From an uncultured Spartobacteria bacterium (GTDB lineage: Bacteria > Verrucomicrobiota > Verrucomicrobiia > Chthoniobacterales > Chthoniobacteraceae): a DNA stretch of 64,000 nucleotides. Shown here in pieces: positions 5,108-29,851 of this stretch; position 1 is the first letter of the stretch, and every line of letters begins with the position of its first letter. The notes under the pieces were generated by a model. That model made no database searches. It worked only from the letters and a program-made list of their open reading frames with translations, and was not told the DNA's origin. The stretch lies in assembly GCA_903919125.1 (NCBI GenBank), contig CAIXGS010000076.1:62001-126000 (forward strand), in the 5' to 3' direction. A program made the position numbers and the translations under genes.

Positions 5108-5159
5108 TCTGCCGACCCTAAAAATAAACTGACAGGTAGATTTCCCGGAGCGCGATTAC

Positions 5160-8100
5160 TCACTCTCGATCACCGTCGAGTCGCAGCAAAGCCGTCTGTA
5201 ACGCCTCCACTGTCGCGGCGTCTGGAGCCGACCACATGCCGCGTTGGGCCGCCTCAAGAAGACGCGCAGTGGCCTCTCTCATCGCATCCAGATTATTTTC
5301 TACGAAAAACGCTTCCTGCTGCAAAACAACCTTTTGTGCCACGGCTTCAAAATGGTGATCCCTCACAAGTCCCGTCGTCGCACTATACCCGAATAGATAA
5401 TCCACGGTCGCGGCCAATTCGAAGGCTCCCTTGTAACCATGCTTGCGCATCGCCTCTATCCAGCGCGGATTCAAAGCGCGACTGTGCAACACCCTCACCA
5501 GTTCTTCTCCCAGCGTCCGCATGCGCGGAAGCTCAGGGTCGCTCGAATCGCCATGGTAATTTGCCGGAACACGGCCCCGCAAATGTTCCACCGCCGCCTG
5601 AAGCCCTCCCTGAAATTGAAAGTAATCATCAGAGTCCAGAATGTCGTGCTCCCGGTTATCTTGATTTTGCGCGATGGCTTCGATGTGACGTAACCGCTCC
5701 TTTAAAGCCTCGGGCTCAGAAGTTAAGGCACCGTCAGAACCCACAGCGTGATCACCCCAGCGCACAAAAACATCTGCCAGATCTCCTTTGCTCTCCCAGT
5801 TGCCGGCGTCAAGAAGCGGCAGAATTCCCGCTCCGTAACATCCAGGTCCGGAGGTAAACACACGCAGTCCGGAAGTCCTCTCTGCAACCGTTTCAGAAAG
5901 GCCACTCTCCACCAGAATAGCGCGTTCTCTCAACCAGGCCGCCCTGATCGGGTTGAGCGACTCGGGCTCATCGAGTAACGCAAGGCGCTTGGGAATAGCC
6001 GCTAACAGCCGCACTGTATCTCCAAATGCGTCTCGAAAAAGACCAGAAACGCGCAGTGTCACATCCACTCGGGGTCGCCCCAAAAGGCTTACGGGCAATA
6101 TCTTGAAATCAATCACCCGCCCCGATCCTTCCTCCCAAACCGGCTCGCAACCCCAAAGCCAAATCGCCTGGGCAAGGTCGTCTCCACCGGTTCGCATGTT
6201 TGAAGTTCCCCAAACCACGAGAGCCAATGTCTTTAACGGCTCACCGTGATCCTGAAAATAACGCTTCAGCAAAGACTCCCCCAGCAAACGCCCGCATCGC
6301 CACGCAGTTGGAGTGGGCACCACGCGAGGATCCAGCGCATAAAAATTTCGGCCCGTGGGCAACACATCAATGCGCCCGCGAGTGGGGGCTCCCGCCGGCC
6401 CAGGCGGAACAAACCGCCCAGCGAGTCCCGACAAAAGACGACTCATCTCTTCATCCGTGCGTTCTAAAAGAGGAATGAGTGTGTGTGTCGCAAATCTTCT
6501 CAGTTCCTCTAAAGCAGGTGACTCCAGCTTAGATTCACCCTTCTCGAACAAGCTTTCAACCCAGCTTCGGGCACGGGATTGCAGCTCGTCACGCTCGGAA
6601 GCCCCCATGGCTTCGAAAACAATTGGAGCTCCTGCGAGCGCCTCCAAAAGCCCCGGTCTACCGCCGCTGGGAAGTCGCAACAAACTTACCACAAAATCCA
6701 CAGCCGCAGCTCCAGAAGGCGCGCTCCCAAAAATGTGTAATCCTGAACGAATCTGAGATTCCTTGAGTTCACAAAGAAAGTTAGCCGCCCCTGAAATTGA
6801 ACGCCCAGCCTCAGGAATATCCGCACGCCAAGGAGCTGCCTCCAGAAGCGCGTTAATTTCCACCTCCAACTCCTCCGCTCTTCTGGGATAAAGAGATGCC
6901 GCCTGAGAATGCTCTTCTAAAAGCCGTTCCAATTGTTCCATTTGCCCATACAGTCCCGCCCTCGTGAGCGGTGGCGTCAGATGATCCACGATCACCGCAC
7001 CCGTACGTCGCTTAGCCTGTGTTCCCTCGCCGGGATTGTTCACAATGAACGGATACAGATGCGGCATCGGCCCCAAACAAAGCCGCGGATAATCATCTGG
7101 GCCCAGTGCAGCAGCGCGCCCAGGCAGCCACTCCAAATTGCCATGCTTTCCAAGATGAATAATGACGTCGGCTCTGAACACTTCCCGTATCCAATGATAA
7201 AACCCCACATACACCGGTGGAGGGGGAAGATCGGGGCTGTGATAAATCGCCTGTGATTGCAGCGAAAACCCTCGAGGCGGCTGAATGCCGACGAACACGT
7301 TTCCGAACTGCACTCCGGAAACAGGTAAATATTCGGGGAGAGCCTCGGGCCAGTGACGGTCCATCTCGGCAACCCGATGCGCGGGCCACGTCGCCATAAA
7401 CGCGCGGAGTTCCCCAGCAGAAACAGATTGTGCACAGCTTTTTCCGTAAGACCCATCGGGATCATTCGTCACGCCCGCCAAGAGCTGCCGCATTAACTCC
7501 GCACCATTTTCCGGTAGGCCTTCCACTAAAAATCCCTCCGCCTGCAGTGCGTGCAAAACCGCCGCAGCACTTGCCGGCGTGTCCAACCCTACACCGTTTC
7601 CTACGCGTCCGTCGCGATTAGGATAATTTGCGAGGATAATGGCCACGCGCTTTTGAGCTGACGCCAGTCTGCGAAGCCGAGCCCAGTTGTGCGCCAACTG
7701 GCAGATGAATTCAATTTGTGAAACATCCGCCCTCAACCGCTTCAATACGCATTGAGCAGCCACGAGGCGTTCATTTTCTTCCTTAAAACCCGCAACGCTC
7801 GAGAGCACGCGTCCATCAATTTCTGGCAATGCGATCTGCACCGCAACCTCGCTCGGCGACAGCCCGCCGGAGAGAGACTCCCACGCCGTCTTCGCTCCGC
7901 TAGACACAGGCACCTGCAATACCGGACATCCAAAAGCCTCAAAAAAACCGCCGCCTTCAGATTGCGCAGTGCTGACCGTAAAGCTCTGCATTGTAAGCAC
8001 AACATCTGGCGCCACGACGGAACCTCTAAGTGCTAAAAGACTTTCCTGCACAAAGGGTTCCCGAAGTGATTGGCAGTAAAAAGCCCCGACCGCAAAACCA

Positions 8101-8762
8101 AGCTTTTCCAAATTCTCGATCAGAGCATCCACAATCTCCAGATCGTTGGTTTGATGCCAGGCGCGGTAAAATGTCAGCCAAGCCACGGGGCCAGAGGGCG
8201 TACTCGACACCGATTGATACCAACCACAGGACGCAACTTTTTCGACGTCTGGCAAGCAAAGCGGATCGTCAACAGTCCAATCCAACAACCTCATTAAAAA
8301 CTCACCGGCACGCGCCAAATTCTTAGGCCCACCTTCACTCAACAAGGCCTGCAACACTCCTGCAACCTCCCGAGGAAAGTCGTTCAGAAGGGCAAGATCT
8401 TCATCCACCTCTCCTACACCAGGTAAAAGTAGCAGCCGTGCACGCGTAGAAAACTCCCGCATATCCTCTAACGCTTGGAGCAAGTGCGGAAAGTATCCAC
8501 GCCCCCCAAGAAGCCGAGCAACAAGCAGCTTCGAACCCTTTACAACTGTCGCGACAAAGTGGTCGGCTGCTACGGGCTGACGAAGAGCCCCAGCGGCGCT
8601 TAAACGCAACTTGGAACTAAACACGCCTCCCCATGAGCCCGCAACTGCAACCAGATCGGTGTCAGCCGCACTTAGAAACACGATGTCCGCGGGAGACTGA
8701 TCGCTTAAGATCAGCGCCCGTTCGGCATCAAAACGCCCTTCCTGTGTGCCTACCCAGTGCAA
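5160..8762 (-). CDS. cobN: Cobaltochelatase large subunit CobN
   Basis: At 1200 aa this is a full-length CobN/BchH-type chelatase subunit. The family hallmark HLGKHGNLEWLPGRA lies near the middle, followed by NNPGEGTQAKRR, RGRIDVLPTGRNFYA and a C-terminal GYKGAFELAATVDYLFGY. CobN inserts cobalt into hydrogenobyrinic acid a,c-diamide in the late-insertion (aerobic) route, working with AAA+ partners CobS and CobT. Neither partner is encoded in this window, so ChlI/ChlD-type partners elsewhere would be needed. It is the last gene of the B12 operon, 24 bp after cobW. Its presence beside an early-insertion chelatase (cbiX) is odd. The assignment is firm; its use in vivo is open. Confidence 0.93.
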   Translation of the reverse strand: MHWVGTQEGRFDAERALILSDQSPADIVFLSAADTDLVAVAGSWGGVFSSKLRLSAAGALRQPVAADHFVATVVKGSKLLVARLLGGRGYFPHLLQALEDMREFSTRARLLLLPGVGEVDEDLALLNDFPREVAGVLQALLSEGGPKNLARAGEFLMRLLDWTVDDPLCLPDVEKVASCGWYQSVSSTPSGPVAWLTFYRAWHQTNDLEIVDALIENLEKLGFAVGAFYCQSLREPFVQESLLALRGSVVAPDVVLTMQSFTVSTAQSEGGGFFEAFGCPVLQVPVSSGAKTAWESLSGGLSPSEVAVQIALPEIDGRVLSSVAGFKEENERLVAAQCVLKRLRADVSQIEFICQLAHNWARLRRLASAQKRVAIILANYPNRDGRVGNGVGLDTPASAAAVLHALQAEGFLVEGLPENGAELMRQLLAGVTNDPDGSYGKSCAQSVSAGELRAFMATWPAHRVAEMDRHWPEALPEYLPVSGVQFGNVFVGIQPPRGFSLQSQAIYHSPDLPPPPVYVGFYHWIREVFRADVIIHLGKHGNLEWLPGRAAALGPDDYPRLCLGPMPHLYPFIVNNPGEGTQAKRRTGAVIVDHLTPPLTRAGLYGQMEQLERLLEEHSQAASLYPRRAEELEVEINALLEAAPWRADIPEAGRSISGAANFLCELKESQIRSGLHIFGSAPSGAAAVDFVVSLLRLPSGGRPGLLEALAGAPIVFEAMGASERDELQSRARSWVESLFEKGESKLESPALEELRRFATHTLIPLLERTDEEMSRLLSGLAGRFVPPGPAGAPTRGRIDVLPTGRNFYALDPRVVPTPTAWRCGRLLGESLLKRYFQDHGEPLKTLALVVWGTSNMRTGGDDLAQAIWLWGCEPVWEEGSGRVIDFKILPVSLLGRPRVDVTLRVSGLFRDAFGDTVRLLAAIPKRLALLDEPESLNPIRAAWLRERAILVESGLSETVAERTSGLRVFTSGPGCYGAGILPLLDAGNWESKGDLADVFVRWGDHAVGSDGALTSEPEALKERLRHIEAIAQNQDNREHDILDSDDYFQFQGGLQAAVEHLRGRVPANYHGDSSDPELPRMRTLGEELVRVLHSRALNPRWIEAMRKHGYKGAFELAATVDYLFGYSATTGLVRDHHFEAVAQKVVLQQEAFFVENNLDAMREATARLLEAAQRGMWSAPDAATVEALQTALLRLDGDRE

Positions 8763-8786
8763 GGCGAAAAGGTGAGTATGCCGCGC

Positions 8787-9932
8787 TTAAGCCCAATGCG
8801 TGCCCGTGACACTGTGCAAAATCTCCGCGACGATTTGCCGCTTCGGGTGATACCCGATGAACACCACCGAAGATTCCGCAGGCGCGTGATCGTGGGCATC
8901 GTAATAAGATTGCACGCGGGCACGCACCGCCTGGAGGACAAGTGCGTGATGTTTACCAGCCACTGAGGCGTGACCTTTTGCGCGAAGAACAGGCTGAGCC
9001 AGAGCCACCTCTGAAATAGCCTTCTTGAGCGCCTCAGCGTCCTGCGGCTCAGCACACCGCAGCACAAAAGACTGCCAGCCTGGGTCGTGGCCGTGAAAGT
9101 GTTCATGCGTTTCCTCACCATGATGATGCGCATCCAGACCGGTATGAGCGTGCCCATCAAACTGAGATTGATCACCAAGGGGCGCGTCGTGCGCATCGGG
9201 CATTTGGTGAAGCGGCCCGTGGTGGTGGTGATGACCATGCTCGTGCACTGCGGGCGCGGGCCCATCATGGAGGTGAAGCCCCATGCACAACCGCGTATCC
9301 AACTGCGCGTGATAAGCCAGTTCCAAGAAGCGGACTTTCGGAGCACGGGCGCGGATGGTGTCCTCTGCCCGCAACAAATCATCTTCGGTGATCGCATCGA
9401 TCTTGTTGAGAACCACGACGTCAGCGTTCTCGAGCTGCTGCAGCAAAATCGCGTCTACTGCCTCTACATGCGAGGGCGCCTCCGCAGAGTCTGCACCCGG
9501 AGCTTTCATTCCCTTATCCAAATTGCCTGCAAGCAGTTGCGGCACATCAACTATGGTCACCACTGCATCCAGCTGAAAGTCTGCTCGGATCTCCGGCCAG
9601 TTCAGTGCCTGCATCACGGGTTGCGGCAACGCCAAACCAGACGTCTCAATAATCACATGGTCCACCTGATGTTTTCTTGCCTGGAGCTGTTGCATCACTG
9701 GGACAAAATCATCGTTTACCGAACAACAAATGCAGCCGTTAGGAAGGTCGTGAATTTCCACCCCGCAACCGTCCCCAGCGGAACGCAACAGCGCGCCATC
9801 GACGGACACCTCACCGAATTCGTTGACCAGAACTGCAAGACGCCTTTCCGGATTCTTTTTTAACAGTCCACAAATGAGGGTCGTCTTTCCCGAACCGAGA
9901 AAGCCGGTAACAATGGTGACAGGAATTTTCAT
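8787..9932 (-). CDS. cobW: CobW-family GTPase / cobalt metallochaperone
   Basis: This 381-aa G3E-family GTPase carries a P-loop GFLGSGKTT at 10-18, the metal-binding CICC motif at 67-70, an ETSGLA switch region near 96-101 and an NKID guanine-specificity motif around residue 155. Between the GTPase and the C-terminal CobW_C domain lies a long His/Asp-rich insert (roughly 225-300, with runs such as HEHGHHHHHG) suited to storing or handing over a divalent metal. Family members in B12 operons are thought to deliver Co2+ to cobalt-dependent steps. The position between hupE and cobN supports a role in cobalt delivery to chelatase. Confidence 0.92.
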   Translation of the reverse strand: MKIPVTIVTGFLGSGKTTLICGLLKKNPERRLAVLVNEFGEVSVDGALLRSAGDGCGVEIHDLPNGCICCSVNDDFVPVMQQLQARKHQVDHVIIETSGLALPQPVMQALNWPEIRADFQLDAVVTIVDVPQLLAGNLDKGMKAPGADSAEAPSHVEAVDAILLQQLENADVVVLNKIDAITEDDLLRAEDTIRARAPKVRFLELAYHAQLDTRLCMGLHLHDGPAPAVHEHGHHHHHGPLHQMPDAHDAPLGDQSQFDGHAHTGLDAHHHGEETHEHFHGHDPGWQSFVLRCAEPQDAEALKKAISEVALAQPVLRAKGHASVAGKHHALVLQAVRARVQSYYDAHDHAPAESSVVFIGYHPKRQIVAEILHSVTGTHWA

Positions 9933-9949
9933 TGGATTTAGTTTTTAGC

Positions 9950-10582
9950 TTAGCGCACACCTTCAATCAGACGAATCACACATTCATTCCATTCCGGCAC
10001 GAATGCGAGAATCGCTGCGCCCAAGGCAACAGTCGCGCCAGTGAGACGCGCCACTGAATGTTTTGCGTTAAGACGGAGCGCCGTCCCCACGAGGAAACCG
10101 ATTAAACACACCAATAAACCGCTAAGTCCGCAGCCCAAGGAAAACAGCGGTGAGGAGAGCAAAACCGGTTTCTCCAAAAGAGCCTGCCCATTCACAACGG
10201 CAGACAATAAAACAGCTAAACCTGCCAAGGATACAATCCCACTTTTTCCAAAATAAATAACTACCCCCAAGACTATTGCAGCAATTGGGACAGCAAGTTC
10301 AGGAAGCGAAACTCCGCTCAGATTTAAACAACCTCCAACGAGTAATAAGACAGAAAAAAGCAGCGGGAACCAAAGACGCAAACGGCCTCCGACCTGAGCC
10401 GCTACTAGTCCAACGGCGAGCGCAGAAAGCACATGGTCCAATCCATGCAACGGCATACTGAGCCCCTGAAGGAAGGGCTGACCTGACATCGCCTCGGCGT
10501 GGTGCGCATGCGCAGTGCTCAGCGATGCGAGCGTTGCTACGAGGGCTAGACTGGGCGGACTTAAAAGGATCGGGCGTTTCAT
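9950..10582 (-). CDS. HupE/UreJ-family cobalt (or nickel) permease
   Basis: The frame is open further upstream, but ATG 10582 is the sensible start because it begins a signal-like hydrophobic segment that ends in TAHA before the HHAE stretch. The 210-aa product has about six further membrane segments and the family motif MPLHGLDHVLSALAVG, whose His and Asp residues bind metal. HupE/UreJ proteins import Ni2+ or Co2+. Being inside a riboswitch-controlled B12 operon, next to cobW, strongly favours cobalt. It would replace CbiMNQO or CbtAB here. It lies 41 bp after cbiH-cbiJ and 17 bp before cobW. Confidence 0.85.
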   Translation of the reverse strand: MKRPILLSPPSLALVATLASLSTAHAHHAEAMSGQPFLQGLSMPLHGLDHVLSALAVGLVAAQVGGRLRLWFPLLFSVLLLVGGCLNLSGVSLPELAVPIAAIVLGVVIYFGKSGIVSLAGLAVLLSAVVNGQALLEKPVLLSSPLFSLGCGLSGLLVCLIGFLVGTALRLNAKHSVARLTGATVALGAAILAFVPEWNECVIRLIEGVR

Positions 10583-10623
10583 ACGGTGGCGTTGGATTGT
10601 GGATTGAAAATGTTTGAATCGAT

Positions 10624-12153
10624 CTAAGGAGTTTCTAGGGCGCGTATCCAGCGGAGAACCTGAGCTGAGTCCTGCGTCATGTTGGAATACTCGATCGAAG
10701 GCCGGTTGACTACCAACACTGGAATTTTGAGCGCACGTGCCGCCTCGATCTTTGCTGGTAACCCGCCCGCCTCTCCGGACTCTTTGGTGATCACGCAATC
10801 AATTTTCCAATCCGCCCAAAGCGCCTCGTTGGCCCGCTGGGAAAACGGCCCCTGCATCGCACAGAGATGCGCAGCTGGAATCCCCGCGTCAACGGCTCTC
10901 GAAACAGAATCCTGATTGGGAGTCACCCGTGCAAACCATTGGCAACGTTTTAAGGCGTCAGCCTGAATGAAAGTGGAGATGTCCTTCACCCCTGTTCCAA
11001 GAAAAATCCGCTTGTGGCCGTTTATTGCCGCGGCCGCAACATCCTCCATCGTATCGAACCCCTGCACATCTGGGGGCAGCACTTTTCCCGGACGCTCGTA
11101 GCGGAGATAAGGAAGGTTTATTTCAGCGCAAATCTGAGTGAGCTGTGTGGAAATCCGGGTGGCGAAAGGATGGGTCCCATCCACGATGGCGCGGGCCCCG
11201 CTTTCAACAAGCAGCGCACGCCGCGCGATTGCACCAATGTGGCCCTCGACTATGTGTGCTTGCGGCACATGGCGACGCGCTTGAGCGGCTCCGTACTCCG
11301 TGGCAACGGAGATCACCACGGGAATCCCCTCGGCCGCGCACTCTTTAGCGAGCGCATTGCCGTCGCGGGTTCCGGTGAAAAACCAAACCGCATGCTTCGG
11401 CGCTGCGTCGTGAATCTGCCATCCGTGATATCCCCGTGGAGAGTAAAGGTAATTGCCAGTGCGCTGCGTAAACCGCGTGCCGATGATGAGCGTGGTCAGC
11501 ATATCGAAACGACGCTGGCGAAGCTCGGCAAGAGAGCAAATTTCGGAGGAAGCATCCCCTCTAAAAGCGTTACGAACGATGCCGCACCACGTTTGAGCAG
11601 GGCGATGCCTTAGCAAGATATCAAGTATCTGATAGACGCCATCTTGGCGTGCAAGACTTTGTATATTGTACAACGCGAGCGCAATATCTGCCTTCGCAAT
11701 CTGTTCAGCACGGTCTTGAATCCATTTCCACGGACACAACAAATCCGAGAGCGAGAGTGTGGCGAAATCATGTCCGAGCGGCGCTCCCAGCAAGGACGCG
11801 CAACTTAGGGCAGCGGTGATTCCCGGAATGACCCGAACCTCAGTTTCCTCTCCCTCTTCCAGCATCTCAAAAACAAGCGGAGCCAAACCGTAGACACCAA
11901 TATCGCCACTCGAAACCAAACTCACCACTTCTCCCTCGCGAGCCAGTTTGAGTGCGAGGGCCGCGCGCTCACGCTCCTTTGTGAGCGGCAATGCGTGTAC
12001 CACCTTTCCTTCAAGCCACGGGGCGATCCATTGCAGATACAAGCCGTAGCCAACGACAGAGCGGCTCTGCAGCAAGGCCTCGCGCGCCATGGGAGGGATC
12101 AACTCTGCCGATCCAGGCCCTACAGAAACTAAATTAATCCGGCCTCTTTTCAT
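10624..12153 (-). CDS. cbiHJ: Fused CbiH-CbiJ: precorrin-3B C17-methyltransferase and precorrin-6A reductase
   Basis: I use the start MKRGRINLVSVGPG at 12153, one base after the cbiG stop; a frame extension to 12192 would overlap cbiG. Residues 1 to about 245 are a SAM-dependent corrinoid methyltransferase (GPGSAEL, VSSGDIGVYG, IPGITAALSCASLLGAPLG), matching CbiH/CobJ, which performs the ring-contraction step. From about 256 to the end is a CbiJ/CobK reductase (IVDGTHPFATRIS, GTGVKDIS, VTKESGEAGG-like end reading CVITKESGEAGG), which reduces precorrin-6A. The two halves act at separated but related steps. Fusions of this pair are uncommon but consistent with pathway channelling. Confidence 0.9.
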   Translation of the reverse strand: MKRGRINLVSVGPGSAELIPPMAREALLQSRSVVGYGLYLQWIAPWLEGKVVHALPLTKERERAALALKLAREGEVVSLVSSGDIGVYGLAPLVFEMLEEGEETEVRVIPGITAALSCASLLGAPLGHDFATLSLSDLLCPWKWIQDRAEQIAKADIALALYNIQSLARQDGVYQILDILLRHRPAQTWCGIVRNAFRGDASSEICSLAELRQRRFDMLTTLIIGTRFTQRTGNYLYSPRGYHGWQIHDAAPKHAVWFFTGTRDGNALAKECAAEGIPVVISVATEYGAAQARRHVPQAHIVEGHIGAIARRALLVESGARAIVDGTHPFATRISTQLTQICAEINLPYLRYERPGKVLPPDVQGFDTMEDVAAAAINGHKRIFLGTGVKDISTFIQADALKRCQWFARVTPNQDSVSRAVDAGIPAAHLCAMQGPFSQRANEALWADWKIDCVITKESGEAGGLPAKIEAARALKIPVLVVNRPSIEYSNMTQDSAQVLRWIRALETP

Positions 12154-12154
12154 T

Positions 12155-12961
12155 TCAAAATTGGATAGGAGCCCCGTCCGACACCACGGCAACAGTCACC
12201 CCAGCGGTAGCAAGCTTTGGCACCACAAGCGTTCCACGGGGAGACGCCAGCAACGCACACGGCTCGCAAACGCCCGCCAGCCCGATACTCGAGAAAACCC
12301 AACGCGAGGGAGTGGCTGTCAAGGGCCTTTGCGCGAGCTGCTCCGAAGAAAAAATTCGCAACGGGATATCGTGTTGCTCAACCCATTTAATCAATCCGAG
12401 TTCGCGCCCTTTGAGGTCCACGGTCGCTATTTCGCGCACGCTAGAAAGCGAAGCTCCTATCATTCGGAGGGCGTTTGCAATCGCGTCGTCGATTCGCTCA
12501 ACACCGACACCTTTTCGACAACCAATGCCCAAAGTAAGAGGCTTTAGGGCTTCTGTTGCAGTGGTGATGACGGGAACTGCTCCGGTTTTTGCGGCAATGC
12601 GATAGGCCAATGCATTGGCTCCACCTTCGTGACCGCACAAAAGAGGGATAGCAAAGCGGCAAGCCTCATCCAAAACCACAACCCCTGGATCGCTATTCTT
12701 ATCGTAAGGCAGCCCCGCGAGGTAGCGCGTTGCAATTCCCGAAGCCATGAGCATCACCCATTGTTTCGCACTCGGAAAGGCCGCCACAAAACGCTCGCGG
12801 TTACTCGGTCCACCGCCCATCGCAGAAATGGCATCCGGCAGGACAAGCGCCTCGAGAAAATCCCCAAGCTTCTCGGCGAGAGGCCGAGCCGATTCGCGCA
12901 CGAGCCAAATAGCGGTGTTAGGAAGAGATTTCAAAACTCGAGCTTGGAGATCGCTAACCAT
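12155..12961 (-). CDS. cbiG: Cobalt-precorrin-5A hydrolase CbiG
   Basis: ATG 12961 is chosen; it overlaps the end of cbiF by 8 bp, and the longer frame to 13117 lies inside cbiF. The 268-aa product contains the CbiG signatures MASGIATRYLAG, GVVVLDEACRFAIPLLCGHE, EGGANALAYRIA and, in the C-terminal domain, LGIGCRKGV. CbiG opens the delta-lactone of cobalt-precorrin-5A and releases acetaldehyde. It is a marker of the early-cobalt (oxygen-independent) route. The next gene starts one base after its stop. Confidence 0.92.
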   Translation of the reverse strand: MVSDLQARVLKSLPNTAIWLVRESARPLAEKLGDFLEALVLPDAISAMGGGPSNRERFVAAFPSAKQWVMLMASGIATRYLAGLPYDKNSDPGVVVLDEACRFAIPLLCGHEGGANALAYRIAAKTGAVPVITTATEALKPLTLGIGCRKGVGVERIDDAIANALRMIGASLSSVREIATVDLKGRELGLIKWVEQHDIPLRIFSSEQLAQRPLTATPSRWVFSSIGLAGVCEPCALLASPRGTLVVPKLATAGVTVAVVSDGAPIQF

Positions 12962-13721
12962 TGGGAACCGCCTTACGGAAGCGGTGTGAATATTCAGGAC
13001 TGTAAAGTCGGGAGGCAAGTCCGGGCTCTGATGCCAGCGCTTCGCCCACCAGCAACATCGTAGAAAGCCTCCAATCCTCAGAAAAAACACCAGAGAGCAA
13101 TGTCGAAAGCGTTGCACTATAGGTCTTTTCCTGTGGCCAACTGGCTTTACAAACCAACGCTGCCGGTGTGTCCCCAGGATAACTTAGCAACAGCTCCTCC
13201 ACCGTATTCTGCAATGAGGCACCGGATAAAAATATCGCCATAGTCGCCTGATGCGAGGCAAGCGCCGCGATCGACTCACCCTCCGGGATACAAGACGCCC
13301 GCCCTTCATTGCGCGTGATGATTATAGTCTGAGAAACCTCGGGCCTCGTCAGCGATACTTTAAGCACCGCCGCTGACGCGGTGAACGAAGACACTCCGGG
13401 CACAACTTCGTAGGGAATGTCTAAGTCCTCCAGCGCCCGCATCTGCTCGCTTATCGCGCCATATATTGCAGGGTCGCCGGAATGCAGCCGCGCAACCAAA
13501 AGCCCGTGCTGCTTAGCCCGAGCGTATTGGGCTATCTGCTCGTTGAGGTTCATCCCCGAGGTATCAAAAAGCTCCGCCTCACTTCGGCAATGAACGAGCA
13601 TGTCTTTGCTCACCAGCGAACCCGCATAGAGGACAATGTCGGCCTCTGCAAGGGCGCGGGCTCCCCGAAGCGTTATGAGATCTGCTGCACCAGGCCCGGC
13701 ACCGATAAAAATGACTTTCAT
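12954..13721 (-). CDS. cbiF: Cobalt-precorrin-4 C11-methyltransferase CbiF
   Basis: The 255-aa product shows the corrinoid methyltransferase fold with IGAGPGAADLITLRGARAL at the N-terminus, RLHSGDPAIYGA and EVVPGVSSFTASAA, the CbiF/CobM pattern. It methylates C11 of the corrin precursor using S-adenosylmethionine. Its start overlaps the cbiL stop by 4 bp, and its end overlaps the cbiG start by 8 bp, indicating coupled translation. The length is normal for the family. Confidence 0.93.
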   Translation of the reverse strand: MKVIFIGAGPGAADLITLRGARALAEADIVLYAGSLVSKDMLVHCRSEAELFDTSGMNLNEQIAQYARAKQHGLLVARLHSGDPAIYGAISEQMRALEDLDIPYEVVPGVSSFTASAAVLKVSLTRPEVSQTIIITRNEGRASCIPEGESIAALASHQATMAIFLSGASLQNTVEELLLSYPGDTPAALVCKASWPQEKTYSATLSTLLSGVFSEDWRLSTMLLVGEALASEPGLASRLYSPEYSHRFRKAVPNG

Positions 13722-14446
13722 AAAATCGTGGGCGCCGGATTACGGATCAAAAGCGTGGCTAAGTAGCCAGATGGTTGCTTACCAATGATCCCTCGGAGAT
13801 CTGTGAGTAACGCCTCGTCGGACATCCCCACCCGACTCCCCAAAACGGTGTGGCTAAGAAGATCCATACGCTGAAGTAACGCCAATACACCCGGCAGGCG
13901 ATGGCCCACTTTCATAAGAACGACAAGATGATTGGAGCAGATTACCCTGGAAAGAACCTCCATATCTTCCGGACATGGAAGAATTTGCACACGCTCCTTA
14001 CCCTCCCCTAAAGTCTGCCCCGTCGCAGCGGCGAGAGCGGCAAAGCTAGTCACCCCAGGAAACACTTTCCACGGTGCCTCTGGGCAAACCGCTCGCACCG
14101 CTCGCAGTGCGTAGTTAAAAGTCGAGTACGTCATCGAGTCACCGAGGGTCAGATAGGCCACGGATTTTCCTTGTCTGAGCAACTCTGCAATCGTCGCTGC
14201 CATGGCGGTGTAGCGCGACTCCAGCGCGCTGTGGTCGCATGACATATCAAATTCAATTTCGTGGAACCGATCCGCCGCAATGTTGTTTTTCGGGAGACAT
14301 TGCTTCGCGGTGGAAGCATCTTGCGAAGTAGCCCGCGGAACGAAAATAGCGTCGCACTTCTGTACAATTTCCCACGCGGCCACAGGGATCAGTCCGATCT
14401 CACCCGGTCCCACGCCGATGCCATAAAAAGTGCCAAGAGGAGTCAT
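13718..14446 (-). CDS. cbiL: Cobalt-precorrin-2 C20-methyltransferase CbiL
   Basis: This is a 242-aa SAM-dependent methyltransferase with FYGIGVGPGEIGLIPVAAWE and then FVPRA, YLTLGDSMTYSTF, FPGVTSFAALAAATG and LMKVGHRL. The sequence VGPGEIGLI and the TLGDPS-like block (TLGDSMTYST) are typical of CbiL/CobI. It adds the methyl group at C20 of (cobalt-)precorrin-2. It overlaps both neighbours (cbiD and cbiF) by 4 bp. Confidence 0.92.
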   Translation of the reverse strand: MTPLGTFYGIGVGPGEIGLIPVAAWEIVQKCDAIFVPRATSQDASTAKQCLPKNNIAADRFHEIEFDMSCDHSALESRYTAMAATIAELLRQGKSVAYLTLGDSMTYSTFNYALRAVRAVCPEAPWKVFPGVTSFAALAAATGQTLGEGKERVQILPCPEDMEVLSRVICSNHLVVLMKVGHRLPGVLALLQRMDLLSHTVLGSRVGMSDEALLTDLRGIIGKQPSGYLATLLIRNPAPTIL

Positions 14447-15588
14447 CGAGTCCCTCCTAAAGAAGCGCCATCCATCGAAAAAAGCCGAACACGGACCGCA
14501 TCAACGCGATCGAGTCTCGCAGCCAAAACATTCACAATAGCGTCCTCCACCGATATCCAAAATGCAGGCGCGCATGGGTGTTGAGCAAGGCGCTCGATCA
14601 CCACTTCGCAGCTATTAGCATCCAAAAGCTCAGGAACAATACTGGGATGTTTGCTCAACGCGATCGTCATCAAAGCGGACACTGCACAAGCACTACGATG
14701 CGAGTGAGTATCCCATGCCCCATCGATAAGCTTCGCGAGCTTTCCAGGATGCCCGACCACCCAAAGCAAGGGCAACGTCGCCTCCTCTTCGCGCAAAGTA
14801 TCGCAGACACTATCTAATGCAAAGCCAACGAAATTAGACATCTGCACGATCTGCTTAAGGGGTAAATCTAGCGAGGCACGAGCGAATCGTTGGCCCAAAT
14901 TCCCCGGCGACAGCACGATCTGAGAGGGGTTGTCCGCGAGAGCAACACGAATATAAACTTCAATCGACGCCTTAAACGACGCCAGAGACTTCGGTTCCAC
15001 AACGCCCGTTGTACCCAAAATTGATATTCCGCCAAGGATGCCTAATCTCGGATTGAAAGTCCGAAGCGCGATGACCTCACCATGCTCGCAGCCAATCTCG
15101 ACATCCAGTCCCGCGTCAGGAGCGTCCGTTTCAAGAACCTCTAAAACCGCCTGCCGAATCATTGCGCGAGGCACAGCGTTAATAGCAGGTTCGCCAATAG
15201 GAATTCGTAAACCGGGCTGAGTCACTACCCCTACCCCCTCTCCCTTCAAAAATTTAATTTGCCCAGAAGTGTTCCGTCGGACCCGCGCAATAATCCGAGC
15301 CCGATGAGTCTGATCGGGGTCGTCGCCCGCATCCTTAATGACCGCAGCACTCGACCACCCTTCGAACTGCTCCATCGGCGTAACTGGAATGGTCAGATAA
15401 TGCACTCCGTCGGGCAGAGATACCTGAACCAGATCAGGCAAGCTGCCAGTCTGGAGGAGCATCAGCGCAGCTTTGGTCGCTGCGGTGGCGCAGGTTCCAG
15501 TGGTGAATCCACGTCGCAATCCGTTCTCGGCGGGAGCCGCGAGGTCGAACGGACTTCGGATTTGAAACGTGGGGTGCATCGCTGACAT
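14443..15588 (-). CDS. cbiD: Cobalt-precorrin-5B C1-methyltransferase CbiD
   Basis: The 381-aa product carries the CbiD N-terminal hallmark LRRGFTTGTCATAATKAA near residue 23, followed by GDDPDQTH and EPAINAVPR-type motifs. CbiD methylates C1 after lactone opening by CbiG and is specific to the early-cobalt pathway; the aerobic route uses CobF instead. Its ATG overlaps the stop of cbiX-cbiC by one base (TAATG). Length and motifs are normal. Confidence 0.94.
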   Translation of the reverse strand: MSAMHPTFQIRSPFDLAAPAENGLRRGFTTGTCATAATKAALMLLQTGSLPDLVQVSLPDGVHYLTIPVTPMEQFEGWSSAAVIKDAGDDPDQTHRARIIARVRRNTSGQIKFLKGEGVGVVTQPGLRIPIGEPAINAVPRAMIRQAVLEVLETDAPDAGLDVEIGCEHGEVIALRTFNPRLGILGGISILGTTGVVEPKSLASFKASIEVYIRVALADNPSQIVLSPGNLGQRFARASLDLPLKQIVQMSNFVGFALDSVCDTLREEEATLPLLWVVGHPGKLAKLIDGAWDTHSHRSACAVSALMTIALSKHPSIVPELLDANSCEVVIERLAQHPCAPAFWISVEDAIVNVLAARLDRVDAVRVRLFSMDGASLGGTR

Positions 15589-17144
15589 TAACGTGGAAGG
15601 CGACTAGCTTGGATGAGCATCGCATTGACTACGGCCGCCGCCCAAGGAGAACCGCCCCGCGTGCCTTTGTTCGTAATACGCGGCACATGCAGACAACGCC
15701 GCAATCGCTCTTTGGACTCCTGTGTTCCAACAAACCCGACGGGCAGTCCGACGAGCAACCGCGGCCGCCAGCCTTGTTCTTGAACTAAACGAATCGCCTC
15801 CTCCACGGCTGTGGGCGCGTCACCGATCACCAACAAGACCTCATTCCCAAACTTCAGCCAGGCTCTTCGGATGCCTGCGGCAGACTTCGTGAGACCATTA
15901 GCCTTCGCCACAAGATCGGTCTCATCATCATGAACCAAGCAGACCGTTCGCAAACCAAACAGACTTATAAGTGACCTGCGCAGACCTGCTTGCACCATTG
16001 TTACATCGGTCACGATAGTACAACGATCCAAGATTGCCCGGATGCCAGCCGCTGGAGCGCCGCTGGAAAGGAAGACATCGTCTGGGACTGCAAAATCTCC
16101 CGAAGTATGAACCAAGCGTTGGAGAATTTCAATCTGATCGGGGGCGAACATGCTCCAACACCGTCCAGCCGCGATGATCTCAAAACTCTTCTCTTCGATA
16201 GGGTGCGCCTCATAGGGAGTTGGGAGCTTTCGAAGGGTCGCTTTGGCTTCAATTTCTGCCTGAGCACCACCGCGCACGTGGAAATGATGCGCCTCCTGAG
16301 GAGCACCCGCCTCGCTCTCGTAACCAATGATCGCGGTGCGGTATTTGCACAGACTACAGTTCATGTGGGCCGTGCCCTCGAAGGCTTCCCTCGCTCTATC
16401 CAGAAGGGCATCAGCAGTGAGTGAGTGTGCCTCAAGGGGACGGGAAAAAAGAACCTCTACATTCGGGCGACTGGCCGCTACTACCGCCACAGCTTCCTCA
16501 ATCCGCTTGATGAGAACACCGGTAAAGAGGAAAAATGGGAGAACCAAAAGACGCCGATACCCAAGGCGTACTGCAGCCTCAAGGCCGGCGCTAAGCGTAG
16601 GCTTTGCAGTGCCCGAATAGCACACAAACGCACTACCAAAGCCCAATCCCTCCTCCAAAATCCGAGCTAGTTTTGCAACATCAGAGTTCGCATCGGGATC
16701 GGTCGTACCTCGCCCGACAACCACCAAGCACGTATCCGAACGGGGAACGATTTCTGAGGACCGCGCCTCGGCTTCGACGATCCGCAAGCGACACAGTTGC
16801 AACACTGAAGGATGCAGGTGCATCGGAGCGCCATATTTAATTTCACACTCAGGAAACTCCCGTTGAAGCGTTTGCACCTCCACGGGCATATCGTTTTTAG
16901 CGTGTGTGGCGCCAAGCAAGACGGCCGGCACCACTGAAATACGTTTGGCACCTGCCTCAACAGCCTTCCGCACGCCTTCATCAATCGTAGGCTTTGAAAA
17001 CTCTAAGTAACCATGCTCAACAATACGTGTGCCAGAGCGGCCGCGGATCACTTCAACGAAGCCTTCAAACTGAGCCACGCCTTCAGGATCACGACTGCCG
17101 TGTCCCGCAACCACTAACGCTATATCTTGAGGGAATGTGATCAC
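15588..17144 (-). CDS. cbiXC: Fused CbiX-CbiC: sirohydrochlorin cobaltochelatase and precorrin-8X methylmutase
   Basis: This 518-aa fusion joins two pathway ends. Residues 1 to about 300 are a long CbiX, made of two ferrochelatase-like halves ([12 protein letters not shown] at the start, [15 protein letters not shown] mid-way) plus a C-terminal Cys/His-rich tail ([16 protein letters not shown]), as in CbiX proteins that bind an Fe-S cluster. CbiX inserts Co2+ into sirohydrochlorin, the entry to the early-cobalt route. From about 315 on is CbiC/CobH ([14 protein letters not shown], catalytic His in [23 protein letters not shown]), which moves the methyl group from C11 to C12 to give cobyrinate. 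Its start overlaps cbiE by 4 bp. Confidence 0.92.
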
Positions 17145-17824
17145 GGGGAGCTGTGGATTTGGCTGGGGAAAGGCGTTAGCGCACGGATGAGTAAAATGCT
17201 CATATCAGAAAATTCGGCAGTGCATTCGTGGAGTTCACCGCTCCAATTTGCTTCGCCTCGCGTCAACTGCTCCCACACCTCAACCGAGTGATTGGGGGCA
17301 ATACCCTCATTCATAAGATAAGCGGAGATGTCGCGCGGCATGAAATCCCAAGGACGCGGAATGACAATCGCGTTGCGCCCGTCTTGGAGCACGTGGAGGA
17401 GGTGTCGCTGAAATGGCTCAATATCACCCCTGCGATGGAATGTGATAAAGGTGGTTTCGTCGAAACAAACTCGGGCGCGGCTTGCCAAAATTTGAGCTGA
17501 ACTAATCCCAGGAATGGTTTCCACCGGATGGCCGCATGCCTTGTCAATGCGCTCTAAAAATTGGAAACCGGAAAAGTGAATATCCCCCATGAATACGACA
17601 ACGCATCGCTTTCCAGCATGATGCAGAAGCGCGACCTCAGCCAGACGTGCGGACTGATCACGGTAATTCATCGGGATCACCATGCAGTCCCTAGGAAAGT
17701 GAGGGCGAGCCACTTCCAGAACGGCATCGAAACCCGCAACCACATCCGCTGCAGCAAGCAGTTCAGCAGCTCGCAATGTTAAATATCCTGGGTCGCCAGG
17801 ACCCGCTCCAATGCAGTGTATCAT
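17141..17824 (-). CDS. cbiE: Cobalt-precorrin-7 C5-methyltransferase CbiE
   Basis: The 227-aa product starts [22 protein letters not shown], the CbiE/CobL N-terminal pattern, and continues with [13 protein letters not shown] and [15 protein letters not shown]. CbiE methylates C5. It ends where the methyltransferase domain ends: the CbiT decarboxylase domain fused in CobL is absent, and no separate cbiT gene is seen in the window. It overlaps cbiA and cbiX-cbiC by 4 bp on each side. Confidence 0.88.
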
Positions 17825-19164
17825 GAGTAAAATCCCAAGTGTGTGCGCACCAAATTCGCGCTGTTTGAAAAATGAAGATGCACATAGGACGCATGTAGCC
17901 CCCCGGCACGGAACCCCTCCTGGCGCGCAGATCCCGTCCGCCTGCGCGTGACACTCCAGGCATTGCCATGCTCAGTTTCTGCGCTCCACACAGAGTGGTG
18001 AAACTCATGACCTTGGTGCGGAAGAGAGCCCCCATCGAAGGCGCTGCAATAACCAAAATGCTGTAACGCGGGCGTCATCTCAACCGTACCTGGGAGAGCT
18101 CCAGCCATGGGGAACACATCGCCACGAACATCGATTAATTTATCGGCAAGCAACATCAACCCCCCGCATTCCGCGTAGCACGGCAACCCGTCAAGAAGGG
18201 CCTCTCGAAGATTGCCCCTCAGCGTCTGATTGTCCGAAATCGCCCCAGCATAAAGTTCGGGAAAACCACCACCGAGCAAAATGCCGTCGATGTTGGCAGG
18301 GAGTGAGCGAGAATGGATCGGAGAAAATGGAACCAGTTCTGCGCCTTGTCGTCTCAACCAATCAAGATTGTTGGCGTAATAAAAATGGAACGCTTCGTCT
18401 TGGGCAACGGCGACGCGGCAAACCACATCAGAGAGCGGGCTAGCTGCCACCTCCTGATTATTGGGATGCATTTGCGCCAATCCTTCGAATCGCTCCAAAT
18501 CCAAATAGAGCGCTGCGAATGCAGCGAGTTCGCCAACCAAGGGCAATTGCCCTGCCTGAGCCGATCGCAAACCGAGATACCGCTCCGGCCAATCCAAAAT
18601 TGCGCTCCTCGGAATAGCGCCAAGTACGGGCACACCAAGCGGCAAAAGCGCCTCTCGCAAATATTCAGCGTGAGAACTACCGCTCACTCCATTGAGAACC
18701 ACGCCGGCAATGCGATGCGGATGCGCCTCAGCGATAAAACCCCGCAGTGCCGCTGCAAGGGAGCGACCAGCCTTTGCCGCGGGCACGCAAAGCACCACGG
18801 GCCATTGCAACAACCGAGCGAGTTCCATTGTACTGCCTTCGTCACTGGAGGCAGAAGCGCCGTCAAAAAGCCCCATCACGCCCTCTAAAATTCCCGTAGC
18901 ACAGCGGGTACTGGAACGCGCTACGGAGAGAACATCAGGCTCACCCATAAGCCAGGAATCCAATGTGATGGAGGGCTTTACAGAAAAGTGATTATGATAG
19001 CCAACATCAATATAGTCCGGGCCGGCCTTGAACGGCTGCAAGGCGTGACCGCGCGCAGCCAATCCAGCGAGCAGCAGACATGTGAGCACGGTCTTCCCGC
19101 TGCTACCATGCAGGCCTCCCAGCACAATACCGCCGGGCAAACTCGTTGGGGTGGGGCTATGCAT
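17821..19164 (-). CDS. cbiA: Cobyrinate a,c-diamide synthase CbiA
   Basis: At 447 aa this is a standard-length CbiA/CobB. It has an N-terminal ATP-binding domain with the P-loop [12 protein letters not shown], followed by FKAGPDYID and GYHNHFS, and a C-terminal class I glutamine amidotransferase domain with the nucleophile Cys in [11 protein letters not shown] and a late HASYVHLHF. It amidates the a and c acetate side chains using glutamine and ATP. It lies 11 bp after cobO and overlaps cbiE by 4 bp. Confidence 0.94.
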
Positions 19165-19175
19165 GCTCTGGTTTC

Positions 19176-19730
19176 CTAAAACTCGATGCCGCGCCGGGCC
19201 GATACACCCTTGTCGAAGTGATGCTTTACCTTGCGCATTTCCGTAACGACATCTGCCACTGCGATGAGGGCATCGGGCGCGTAACGACCGGTGAAAACGA
19301 GTTCCACTTGCGGAGGTCGCGCGAGCGCTAAAGACACCGCACGCTCCAGAGGTATCAAGCCACGATGAAGGCAGTAATTAATCTCATCGACGACGACTAA
19401 GTCGTATTCGCCCGAGCAAAGCACTGTTTGAAGGACATCCATTTCTGTTGCCAATGCGACGGTCATCGCTTCGACGTGTTCGGGGATATGCTTGCTGCGC
19501 GAAAGAATCCAGTCCTGCTCAACATTGCGGTAAGTAAGATTGGGATGAAGCGTCGGACACAAAGCCAGCTCCCCGGTTTTCCATCGGGGCTTCATCATCC
19601 GCAAATAGTAGACGTGGAAACCACAGCCCAAAGCACGGAGCATGAGTCCCATAGAAGCGGTACTCTTACCCTTTCCTTCCCCGGTATATATCTGAAAAGC
19701 ACCCTGCTTAAGGCGTTGATTTTGTTCCAT
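19176..19730 (-). CDS. cobO: Cob(I)alamin adenosyltransferase, CobO/BtuR type
   Basis: The 184-aa protein has the reversed-P-loop motif YTGEGKGKSTASMGLMLRA typical of the CobA/CobO/BtuR class, then VVVDEINYCLHRGLI and VELVFTGRYAPDALI. It transfers the adenosyl group of ATP to Co(I) corrinoid. Its N-terminus overlaps the end of cbiB by 23 bp. Confidence 0.94.
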   Translation of the reverse strand: MEQNQRLKQGAFQIYTGEGKGKSTASMGLMLRALGCGFHVYYLRMMKPRWKTGELALCPTLHPNLTYRNVEQDWILSRSKHIPEHVEAMTVALATEMDVLQTVLCSGEYDLVVVDEINYCLHRGLIPLERAVSLALARPPQVELVFTGRYAPDALIAVADVVTEMRKVKHHFDKGVSARRGIEF

Positions 19731-20793
19731 AAATAATTTGCCCTTGAAGCTTCACCGGAGCAGGCGAAGGTTGCAGGACAACCTCCTGCTTAAGTGTCGG
19801 CGCTCTCAGGTTGAATTCGCTGATATTCGGCGCCTCAAACCCGCTGGAAGGGCGTGCTGATTGGTCACGCTTGGCGACGTAGAGCCCTAATAGAATGACA
19901 CAAAGAAACGCCACTCCCCAAAACCAGCGGAGTACTCTCAGAATGTCGCGAGGCTCCGGCGGTTGCCCATTTTTATTGAAAATCGGTCCCTGAGCCGGAA
20001 CGCCATCATAGAAATTTAAGCCTCCGAGCCGCAGATTTAGAGCCCAAGCTGCAGCCGCCTCACCCCAACCTGCGTTGGGACTCGAATGCTTGGCTGCGTC
20101 CTCCATCACTGCGATGGCGTAACGAAAACCACGCGGCAGTAGAGAAAACAGCGCACATAACCTTGCGGGGATAAAACTCAGTGCGTCGTCTGTGAGCGCG
20201 GAAAACTTGCCGAACAATTCGTAGCGTTCATTTCGGTGCCCCACCATAGAATCGAGAGTATTTGCGCAGCGATACAAGAGAGCGCCGGGCACACCGCCAA
20301 CCACCGCCCAGAAAAGAGGAGCAACAAACCCGTCTGTAGCGCTTTCAGCCACGGCTTCCACTGTTGCGCGGGAGACGCCCTGCACATCGAGGGCCACGGT
20401 ATCTCTACCTACCAAAAAACCGACACGGCGTCGGCTCTCCTCCAAATCACCAAGGACAAGAGGAACGACCACCGCCCTTGCATGGCCATCAAGATCCCGT
20501 GCAGCCACTGTCTGGTAGACGACGAATATATCGAAAATCCATGCAAGGGATGGACTTATTGCTTCTAAAATCTGTCGCACCACTGCGTACGCAGCCAACA
20601 TTCCACCACAAACAGAAAGCCAGAAACACACACCAGCAGGGACATTACGGCCCATCGCGCTAGACCAAAACTTTTCCAGTGCGGCTGCCATGTGGCCAGC
20701 CAAGCGAGTAAGATGCGGCCAACCACGCGGATCCCCGAGTAAGAGATCGAGCCCAACAGCAGCCAGAAATTGAAATAAATCAATCTGCCACAT
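19708..20793 (-). CDS. cbiB: Adenosylcobinamide-phosphate synthase CbiB
   Basis: The 361-aa integral membrane protein opens with LAAVGLDLLLGDPRGWPHLTR, the CbiB/CobD signature, and contains GRDTVALDVQGVSRATVEA and AVMEDAAKHSSPNAGWGEAA. CbiB joins adenosylcobyric acid to (R)-1-amino-2-propanol phosphate. The C-terminal 40 or so residues beyond the last membrane helix are extra, polar and Pro/Ser-rich. It overlaps cobD-cbiP by 14 bp and cobO by 23 bp. In the aerobic naming system this protein is called CobD, not to be confused with the decarboxylase. Confidence 0.92.
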   Translation of the reverse strand: MWQIDLFQFLAAVGLDLLLGDPRGWPHLTRLAGHMAAALEKFWSSAMGRNVPAGVCFWLSVCGGMLAAYAVVRQILEAISPSLAWIFDIFVVYQTVAARDLDGHARAVVVPLVLGDLEESRRRVGFLVGRDTVALDVQGVSRATVEAVAESATDGFVAPLFWAVVGGVPGALLYRCANTLDSMVGHRNERYELFGKFSALTDDALSFIPARLCALFSLLPRGFRYAIAVMEDAAKHSSPNAGWGEAAAAWALNLRLGGLNFYDGVPAQGPIFNKNGQPPEPRDILRVLRWFWGVAFLCVILLGLYVAKRDQSARPSSGFEAPNISEFNLRAPTLKQEVVLQPSPAPVKLQGQIIYGTKSTP

Positions 20794-23332: not shown

Positions 23333-23862
23333 GGCAATCGTCCTCCCTTAAGAACCAGAGGCAGACCTGCAATTTGAAATTCTACAAGGTCGGCTTCGGC
23401 GGCCACGAGTTGGTTAGCCCGGCCGCACAGATCCCGAAAACTACGCCCTGCAGGATTGGATGGGACCAATCCCATTCCCAGCTCGTTGCTCACAATCAGA
23501 ATGCTGTGTGCGTTCCTCTTTGCACTAACAATTGAAGCCCTAAGATAATCAAATAGAACATTTTCCTCCATCGCTTCACAGTGGAAGGACAGCCACAAAG
23601 TAAGGCAATCTAGGAGGATGGTGCGCCCGCTTAACTCGGCGAAAAGGACGGGTAAGTCGAATCGATTTTCAACCGTCAACCAGTGCGCTGGGCGACGTCC
23701 TTGGTGCGCTCCAATCCGATCGAGCATCTCAATGTCCGCAAGTGACGTGGCGCAGGTGGCCACATAAACCACATCAGCTTCGCTGGCCGCCGCAAGGGCT
23801 TCAGCGCGGCGACTTTTCCCACTGCGTGCGCCACCAAGAATAAGGGAGAGGTGAGCGCTCAT
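23329..23862 (-). CDS. cobU: Adenosylcobinamide kinase / guanylyltransferase CobU
   Basis: The start is ATG 23862 (MSAHLSLILGG), overlapping cobS by 4 bp; the frame reaches further upstream only into cobS. The 177-aa enzyme has the P-loop LGGARSGKSRRAEALA, DCLTLWLS, and GMGLVPSNPAGRSFRDLCGR, all CobU/CobP signatures. It phosphorylates adenosylcobinamide and then adds GMP, activating it for loop attachment by CobS. Confidence 0.94.
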   Translation of the reverse strand: MSAHLSLILGGARSGKSRRAEALAAASEADVVYVATCATSLADIEMLDRIGAHQGRRPAHWLTVENRFDLPVLFAELSGRTILLDCLTLWLSFHCEAMEENVLFDYLRASIVSAKRNAHSILIVSNELGMGLVPSNPAGRSFRDLCGRANQLVAAEADLVEFQIAGLPLVLKGGRLP

Positions 23863-24617
23863 GAACGGCTGAGGAGAGCGGTTAGAAACGTTAGCTCGGA
23901 AATCTGGACGGTGGCGCCCAAACAATCCCCGGTGATACCGCCGATCTTTCTGTGGAAAAAGTTCGCCAGAAAAAAGACCACTAATATGACGCAAGAGAGG
24001 ACTGGCATAGTGGCCGCTTCAAAACAAAACAGCGCTAGAACAGCCGGAGGTGCGAGCGAACCCCACACCTGAATGCGACTGAGAGTGCGGCAAAAAGGAT
24101 GCGCACGAGTAGTGTCTAAGCCCACGTGGGGCTGCAGCTGCATGACGGCAACGGCCGCAGCACGACTGGCCGCGTGAGCGCACACAATCGCCTGCATGGC
24201 AAACAAAACACCCTTGGCCAGAAGAGCTTCCAAAATAAAAAATTTTGCACTAAAGGCGAACCAAATGGCGATCGCCCCGAAGCTACCAAGCCGGGAATCC
24301 TTCATAATTTCCATGCGTTGAAACGGAGTGCGGCCTCCGAAGATTCCATCGGCGGCATCGGCAAGACCATCTTCGTGAAAGGCGCCGGTGATCAGAACGC
24401 CGGCCAGCATGGAAAGGAGCACTGCGAGTTTCGCTGGAAAAACATCCGCCGCCGTTGTCAGTACACCGGCGCAGAGTAGCCCTACGAGCGCACCCACCGC
24501 CGGAAAGTACGCTACAGAGGCTGTCACCGCGTCCGGCGAATAGTTGCACCAGCGCCCAACGGGGAGTCGCGTGAGAAGCATAACAGCGGTCAGAAATTGA
24601 TTCCACGCGTCCTTCAT
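23859..24617 (-). CDS. cobS: Adenosylcobinamide-GDP ribazoletransferase CobS
   Basis: This 252-aa membrane protein has LLTRLPVGRW near the N-terminus, ITGAFHEDGLADAADGIFGG (the conserved acidic metal-binding region) and several hydrophobic helices. CobS condenses adenosylcobinamide-GDP with alpha-ribazole (phosphate), the last step of cobalamin assembly. It overlaps cobT and cobU by 4 bp each. It should not be confused with the chelatase subunit of the same name in the aerobic pathway, which is absent here. Confidence 0.93.
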   Translation of the reverse strand: MKDAWNQFLTAVMLLTRLPVGRWCNYSPDAVTASVAYFPAVGALVGLLCAGVLTTAADVFPAKLAVLLSMLAGVLITGAFHEDGLADAADGIFGGRTPFQRMEIMKDSRLGSFGAIAIWFAFSAKFFILEALLAKGVLFAMQAIVCAHAASRAAAVAVMQLQPHVGLDTTRAHPFCRTLSRIQVWGSLAPPAVLALFCFEAATMPVLSCVILVVFFLANFFHRKIGGITGDCLGATVQISELTFLTALLSRS

Positions 24618-25862: not shown

Positions 25863-25879
25863 CCGACGAATGAGTTGCT

Positions 25880-26056
25880 GGTGCCGTGAATGTTCTGGCT
25901 CCCGGCTACGGCCGAGCGGCAAAGGCTATGCCCTCCGATCGACCAACCTCGCTCCCGCCTTCACCCTTACCGAAGTAAAGATTGGCATTTTGGGAGTCTG
26001 TCCCCGGTTACAGCAGCGCGACTGCCCCCGGCTTACACGGGGTTCCTCGCGGCACC
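25880..26056 (-). ncRNA. Cobalamin (adenosylcobalamin-type) riboswitch
   Basis: Read on the minus strand, the element is closed by a perfect P1 stem, GGTGCCG (26056-26050) with CGGCACC (25886-25880). In order it contains the GC-rich arm with GTAAGCCGGGGGCAG, the conserved TGCTGTAA (26015-26008), AATGCCAAT (25989-25981), GTGAAGGC (25964-25957, cf. GGGAAGGC) and a B12 box AGCCGGGAGCCAGAAC (25907-25892). Spacing and order fit the cobalamin riboswitch, about 180 nt. It sits 160 nt upstream of cobT and should repress the 17-gene operon when adenosylcobalamin is plentiful. Confidence 0.88.
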
Positions 26057-26154
26057 TGCAATGAAGCAACAGTGTGCGCGCTCAAAGTGGAAGGGCAAGG
26101 AGATTTGAGGGACTCGGGAACGCGCCAACGTAAGAGCGGAATCCGTCCAAACAA

Positions 26155-28838: not shown

Positions 28839-28839
28839 T

Positions 28840-29727: not shown

Positions 29728-29758
29728 TGGTGAGAAACTTAGCACAAGCGGATCTCTA

Positions 29759-29775
29759 TTGCAACTCAAATGCAA
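29759..29775. promoter_or_regulatory. Palindrome upstream of the metal transporter operon, candidate metalloregulator operator
   Basis: TTGCA and TGCAA are arranged as a perfect 5-bp inverted repeat with a 7-bp spacer, 32 bp upstream of the ZnuA-type start codon. The size and position suit a Fur-family (Zur) operator, and a Fur-type regulator is encoded at 33738-34193. No second copy was found by eye, so this is only a candidate. Confidence 0.35.
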
Positions 29776-29851
29776 CAAGCTCACTCCACCACTCCCCTCT
29801 CCCCGATGGTGGACTTTCCTCCACATGCAGTTCATTTTATCTAGTCCTCCC

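Follow-up and report, generated by a model that had tools for sequence, protein, structure and literature searches.

The B12 operon of an uncultured Spartobacteria bacterium (Verrucomicrobiota, Chthoniobacteraceae) combines the enzymes of the cobalt-early pathway, among them the chelatase CbiX, with a full-length CobN, the large subunit of the late cobaltochelatase. The same genome encodes, away from the operon, a single-chain AAA+/VWA protein (ChlID) that is probably the partner of CobN. We propose that HupE, CobW, CobN and ChlID may form a late-type module, added to the cobalt-early pathway, for the use of metal-free corrinoids; taken as a whole, this statement has about an even chance of being right.

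Organization of the B12 operon

The window, i.e. the whole stretch of 64,000 nucleotides that was analysed, contains a B12 operon of 17 tightly packed genes on the reverse strand (5160-25720), headed by a cobalamin riboswitch; neighbouring genes overlap or lie at most 41 bp apart (Table 1). The coexistence of the two chelatases was originally noted for positions 5160-17144, where it was confirmed, but that extent proved too small, as the operon runs from the riboswitch to CobN. The CobS and CobT encoded at its start were rejected as chelatase subunits: they are nucleotide-loop enzymes, unrelated namesakes of the latter. A promoter and terminator scan of positions 4800-11000 yielded nothing exceeding shuffled sequences. 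Upstream of the operon and in the same direction lie genes of a zinc-type ABC transporter (ABC-3, ATPase and ZnuA, 26793-30189), with a Fur-family regulator beyond them (33738-34193).

Table 1. Riboswitch and genes of the B12 operon in the order of transcription (positions in the window).
Feature	Position	Strand	Evidence and remarks
Cobalamin riboswitch	25868..26089	-	Rfam RF00174, 58.8 bits (gathering 31.5); upstream of the operon
CobT-type NaMN:DMB phosphoribosyltransferase (nucleotide loop)	24614..25720	-	By position; as a tblastn query, it retrieves its syntenic counterpart from relatives
CobS cobalamin-5-phosphate synthase (nucleotide loop)	23859..24617	-	PF02654
CobU	23329..23994	-	PF02283
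CobD-CobQ(CbiP) fusion	20780..23332	-	PF00155 + PF01656 + PF07685
CbiB	19708..20793	-	PF03186
CobO/BtuR corrinoid adenosyltransferase	19176..19730	-	PF02572
CbiA a,c-diamide synthase	17821..19164	-	PF01656 + PF07685
CbiE, no CbiT part	17141..17824	-	NF004457, 319 bits, over cut-off
CbiX(L)-CbiC fusion, early cobaltochelatase + precorrin-8X methylmutase	15588..17144	-	PF01903 + PF02570
CbiD	14443..15588	-	TIGR00312, 355.9 bits, over cut-off
CbiL	13718..14446	-	TIGR01467, over cut-off
CbiF	12954..13721	-	TIGR01465, over cut-off
CbiG	12155..13117	-	PF11760 + PF01890, over Pfam cut-offs
CbiH-CbiJ fusion	10624..12192	-	TIGR01466 + TIGR00715, over cut-offs
HupE/UreJ-type permease	9950..10582	-	PF04955, 77 bits; start moved to the ATG at 10582
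CobW G3E GTPase, cobalt metallochaperone	8787..9932	-	PF02492 + PF07683; GFLGSGKT, GCICC, His-rich stretch
CobN, class I cobaltochelatase large subunit	5160..8762	-	TIGR02257, 1203.9 bits (cut-off 822.05); PF02514; last gene

CbiD, CbiG and CbiX, which the original prediction took as markers of the early-cobalt route, are all present. The CbiX part of the fusion protein has His15 and His81 in its N-terminal lobe, MNCSLC at 261 and HHFHVR at 286; two catalytic histidines in this lobe, an MXCXXC motif and a His-rich tail make up the pattern of Bacillus CbiX(L) (PMC7689651), and the histidine pair and MXCXXC are kept in nine of nine orthologues. CbiE stands alone, and no CbiT in the genome reaches the cut-off (best match 46.6 bits, on contig C13, against 78.3), which leaves C15 methylation/decarboxylation unaccounted for. 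The conserved part of CbiG begins near codon 65 and most relatives match from about that residue; the first ~65 codons, which overlap CbiF, are probably untranslated.

CobN, the only one in the genome, closes the operon as predicted and is intact: it is a protein of 1200 residues, with a TTG start and no internal stop. Its identity to eight relatives ranges from 55 to 86%, the hallmark blocks are invariant across the nine aligned sequences, and a search for inactivating changes found none. The gene preceding it, 24 bp away, is cobW, which usually adjoins cobN (PMC7689651). The late pathway receives its Co(II) from CobW, whereas the early pathway manages without this protein (PMC10206600, PMC7895991); the best family match of the protein encoded here is TIGR02475, with 272 bits under a cut-off of 332. 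The HupE/UreJ-type permease probably serves cobalt uptake, and HupE relatives are able to transport cobalt (PMC7689651).

Genome-wide search for late-pathway components

The assembly comprises 4.34 Mb in 87 contigs and is 95% complete. The original prediction described the CobS and CobT partners of CobN as missing from the window; neither chelatase CobS (TIGR01650) nor chelatase CobT (TIGR01651) has a match in the whole assembly, so that neither a canonical CobNST chelatase nor a complete CobST pair was found. The absence of CobG and CobF, the markers of the aerobic (cobalt-late) pathway, also extends to the whole genome: the best CobG score is 69.5 bits against a cut-off of 234.8, in a 574-residue ORF probably encoding a nitrite/sulfite reductase, and none of the six tetrapyrrole methylases is CobF, judged by position and relatives (CobZ, an alternative to CobG, was left out of the search).

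ChlID as a candidate partner of CobN

The same genome search, which also covered ChlI and ChlD, revealed a ChlI-ChlD-like protein of 575 residues, encoded next to secA on contig C48 (85836-87563, reverse strand). In this single chain, an N-terminal ChlI-like AAA+ half with Walker A (GHRGCAKS) and Walker B (LYLDE) motifs is joined to a C-terminal VWA_CoxE-like half containing DASRS. The VWA_CoxE match has an E-value of 1.3e-5 but, at 25.2 bits, is under the cut-off of 26.4; aligning 15 sequences showed the Walker motifs, DASRS and SDG to be conserved. The best NCBIfam match of ChlID is TIGR02442 ("putative cobaltochelatase"), at 357 bits below the cut-off of 779, with a VWA half that is divergent. 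Among the matches listed for the source genome there is no separate protein of ChlI strength, the next being a 361-residue ORF (E = 4e-12), and no BchD/ChlD is found over the cut-off.

Both distribution and gene order connect ChlID with CobN. Ten of the 97 genomes of the order encode both proteins and 84 encode neither; one has CobN only, its copy being broken by a contig end, and two, 62-68% complete, have ChlID only (Fisher p = 6e-11, with genomes treated as independent although they are related). In a sample of 288 genomes from the phylum, the three CobNs with more than 700 bits sit in exactly the three TIGR02442-positive genomes. In the genus of the window ChlID is encoded apart from the B12 operon, and in loci of the sister family, Deltaproteobacteria and SAR324 it lies directly 3' of cobN; this adjacency in several phyla is stronger evidence than the p-values. 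The CobN and ChlID trees are similar, but no control gene was compared, and the likeness, which speaks for co-inheritance only, was therefore left out of the functional evidence. We conclude with good confidence that ChlID is the partner of CobN, in line with the original suggestion that a ChlI/ChlD-like protein might serve it. Since the genome encodes this protein and relatives tend to have it along with CobN, the original concern that CobN is idle is unlikely to hold.

Several loci with other arrangements were seen. Cobalt-early genes lie beside cobN in six SAR324-type loci (L105, L110, L111, L113, L116 and L118), with no ChlID-like gene within the stretch examined. Four loci from Tepidiforma and one other MAG (L108, L109, L117 and L124) have a tandem pair of cobN genes with a ChlID-like gene between them.

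Distribution of the two-chelatase combination

CbiD occurs in 16 of the 97 genomes of the order. Eleven share the operon type of the window and CobN is kept in ten of them, the eleventh being broken and 62% complete; the five whose early operon is of another type have no full-length CobN, and at four of these loci there is a short CbiX match. These counts bear on the objection, raised originally, that most relatives might lack cobN. In the phylum sample, 38 genomes encode CbiD, and CobN over the cut-off (two of 288 genomes) accompanies it only in the genome of the window. Early-route B12 synthesis thus does not need CobN, and the combination is lineage-specific here.

Weaker CobN-like proteins are encoded in 32 genomes of the phylum sample, none with a TIGR02442 match. 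Their scores are well under the CobN cut-off, the genomes have no ChlI/ChlD match and many have CbiD; these proteins are possibly HmuS-like. The close relatives that carry names are mostly Chthoniobacteraceae MAGs of Verrucomicrobiota, and sample names suggest a freshwater habitat. Two MAGs with closely related cobN genes (L084 and L087) are titled Opitutus sp. GAS368 and Akkermansia muciniphila, unlike the Chthoniobacteraceae relatives, and are probably mislabelled bins.

Proposed role of CobN

In the most likely scheme, CbiX would insert cobalt early in de novo B12 synthesis, while a late-type module, consisting of HupE for uptake, CobW for delivery and CobN as the corrinoid-binding chelatase, would supplement this pathway, with ChlID powering CobN at the expense of ATP. 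CobN, ChlID and CobW would most likely place cobalt into metal-free corrinoids that are either imported or arise from failed early insertion, and the cobalt-loaded products would re-enter the pathway at cobyrinic acid a,c-diamide. We infer a CobN-ChlID complex and cobalt as its metal from gene content and context. The substrate is probably a metal-free corrinoid of one of these two origins because CobG and CobF were not found, which makes a complete metal-free route unlikely. Bacteria can make such compounds, since a Chromatium strain supplied with DMB yielded hydrogenobalamin (PMC7693184). Salvage of metal-free corrinoids is our best guess at the function of CobN; counted against it are the unlinked position of ChlID here, its score under the TIGR02442 cut-off and the perhaps aerobic nature of the genome described next.

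G226, a genome of the same class (4.1 Mb, 98% complete), has CobN, CobW, CobO, ChlI, ChlD, CbiA, CobT, CobS, CobU, CobD, CobQ and CbiB together in ~17 kb (C1:41671-58472; loci L192 and L205) and lacks CbiD. No clear ring-synthesis gene is present in the 1.57 Mb of its sequence covered (38%), where a single weak match resembled CbiE (E = 9e-4). This cluster is a possible corrinoid-salvage genotype, although genes in the other 62% of the genome may provide aerobic ring synthesis. A more general version of the proposal, in which CobN, ChlID and CobW constitute a self-sufficient unit that salvages or repairs metal-free corrinoids and can be joined to a cobalt-early pathway or, as G226 may illustrate, to no ring synthesis at all, is possible but doubtful. 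If true, it would imply that cobalt-free corrin rings are exchanged in freshwater communities.

Alternatively, when cobalt is scarce or oxygen high, metal-free intermediates might pass through permissive Cbi enzymes and receive cobalt late from CobN-ChlID, which would make the two chelatases alternative options of a single pathway. Several Cbi enzymes do accept cobalt-free substrates (PMC8305020), and CobN, CobW and HupE share the riboswitch-led operon with the ring genes. However, with neither CobG nor CobF found (CobZ left out) and with the CbiG reaction dependent on cobalt (PMC8305020), such a route would have no visible ring-contraction step; we regard it as unlikely, and the related suggestion in the original prediction that the organism switches routes is weakened by the failure to find these two Cob enzymes.

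CobN might instead act on another metal or tetrapyrrole, for example by stripping iron from heme, as its homologue HmuS does (PMC12583661), or by demetallating corrinoids. Many genomes of the phylum do have CobN-like proteins without ChlID. This CobN, however, exceeds its family cut-off, and its closest solved chains are CobN (914 bits versus 312 for HmuS); its gene adjoins cobW in a B12 operon and falls in the ChlID-bearing group, unlike those weaker proteins. Sequence affinity and operon context together make this other role, also raised in the original prediction, improbable.

We see a similarly slim chance that cobalt is chiefly inserted by CobN and that the CbiX domain works mostly in sirohaem synthesis or is left over: class II chelatases show little metal specificity (PMC7689651), the best solved relatives of the domain are SirB ferrochelatases and the genome has a probable nitrite/sulfite reductase ORF, but CbiX is fused to CbiC inside the B12 operon, it keeps the histidine pair and the MXCXXC/His-rich tail, and CbiG requires early cobalt. 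That CobN-ChlID is dispensable, the residue of a module gained by horizontal transfer and retained through operon linkage, would agree with its patchy spread (CobN in 11 of 97 genomes of the order and, over the cut-off, in 2 of 288 of the phylum sample) but is hardly likely, as the reading frames are intact in the copies read and both genes, though unlinked, are conserved in the genus, which suggests selection on the pair.

Relation to known systems

It is difficult to assign a pathway to a genome that has both kinds of chelatase, and the chelatases are not confined to a single route each (Shelton et al., PMC6461909). The genotype, though uncommon, has been described in salt-loving archaea and in cyanobacteria, and a Chlorobium population and Geobacter lovleyi are published cases in which CobN accompanies early-route genes in the absence of CobST; thus, it is not new in itself. 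What is new here is another lineage that has it and a partner that can be named. The lineage is a clean case: its early route is intact, the search for an aerobic enzyme of ring contraction (CobG, with CobZ left out) found none, and a candidate CobN partner was identified.

The closest parallel in gene content is Haloferax volcanii, where a cobalt-early pathway accompanies CobN and ChlID (HVO_B0051/HVO_B0050) and salvage has been suggested (PMC8305020). Both organisms have a CbiX/CbiG early route, CobN with a ChlI-ChlD-type partner and no late route; in the archaeon chlID is adjacent to cobN, whereas here it lies elsewhere in the genome, CbiX forms a fusion with CbiC, and HupE and CobW precede cobN. 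The question posed by Haloferax, what a late chelatase is for in a cobalt-early organism, becomes testable with a defined CobN-ChlID-CobW set.

Cyanobacteria likewise have CobN without CobST in genomes that also bear early-route genes, and their CobN has been proposed to share ChlI/ChlD with the Mg chelatase (PMC9227772); they synthesize chlorophyll and have separate ChlI and ChlD, in contrast to the one chain found here. The CobNST systems of Pseudomonas denitrificans and Rhodobacter have the CobN large subunit and the CobW chaperone in common with the present one, which differs in that CobS, CobT, CobG and CobF were not found. HmuS heme dechelatase is a distant homologue of CobN and is not encoded in a B12 operon with cobW. 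Finally, a frameshifted chlD that gives small and medium subunits (PMC9227772) also provides ChlI and ChlD functions from one gene and has CobN as partner. Expression of ChlID by frameshifting was rejected for the present lineage: each full-length gene is a single open frame over the AAA+ and VWA parts, with no shared slippery heptamer conserved near the junction.
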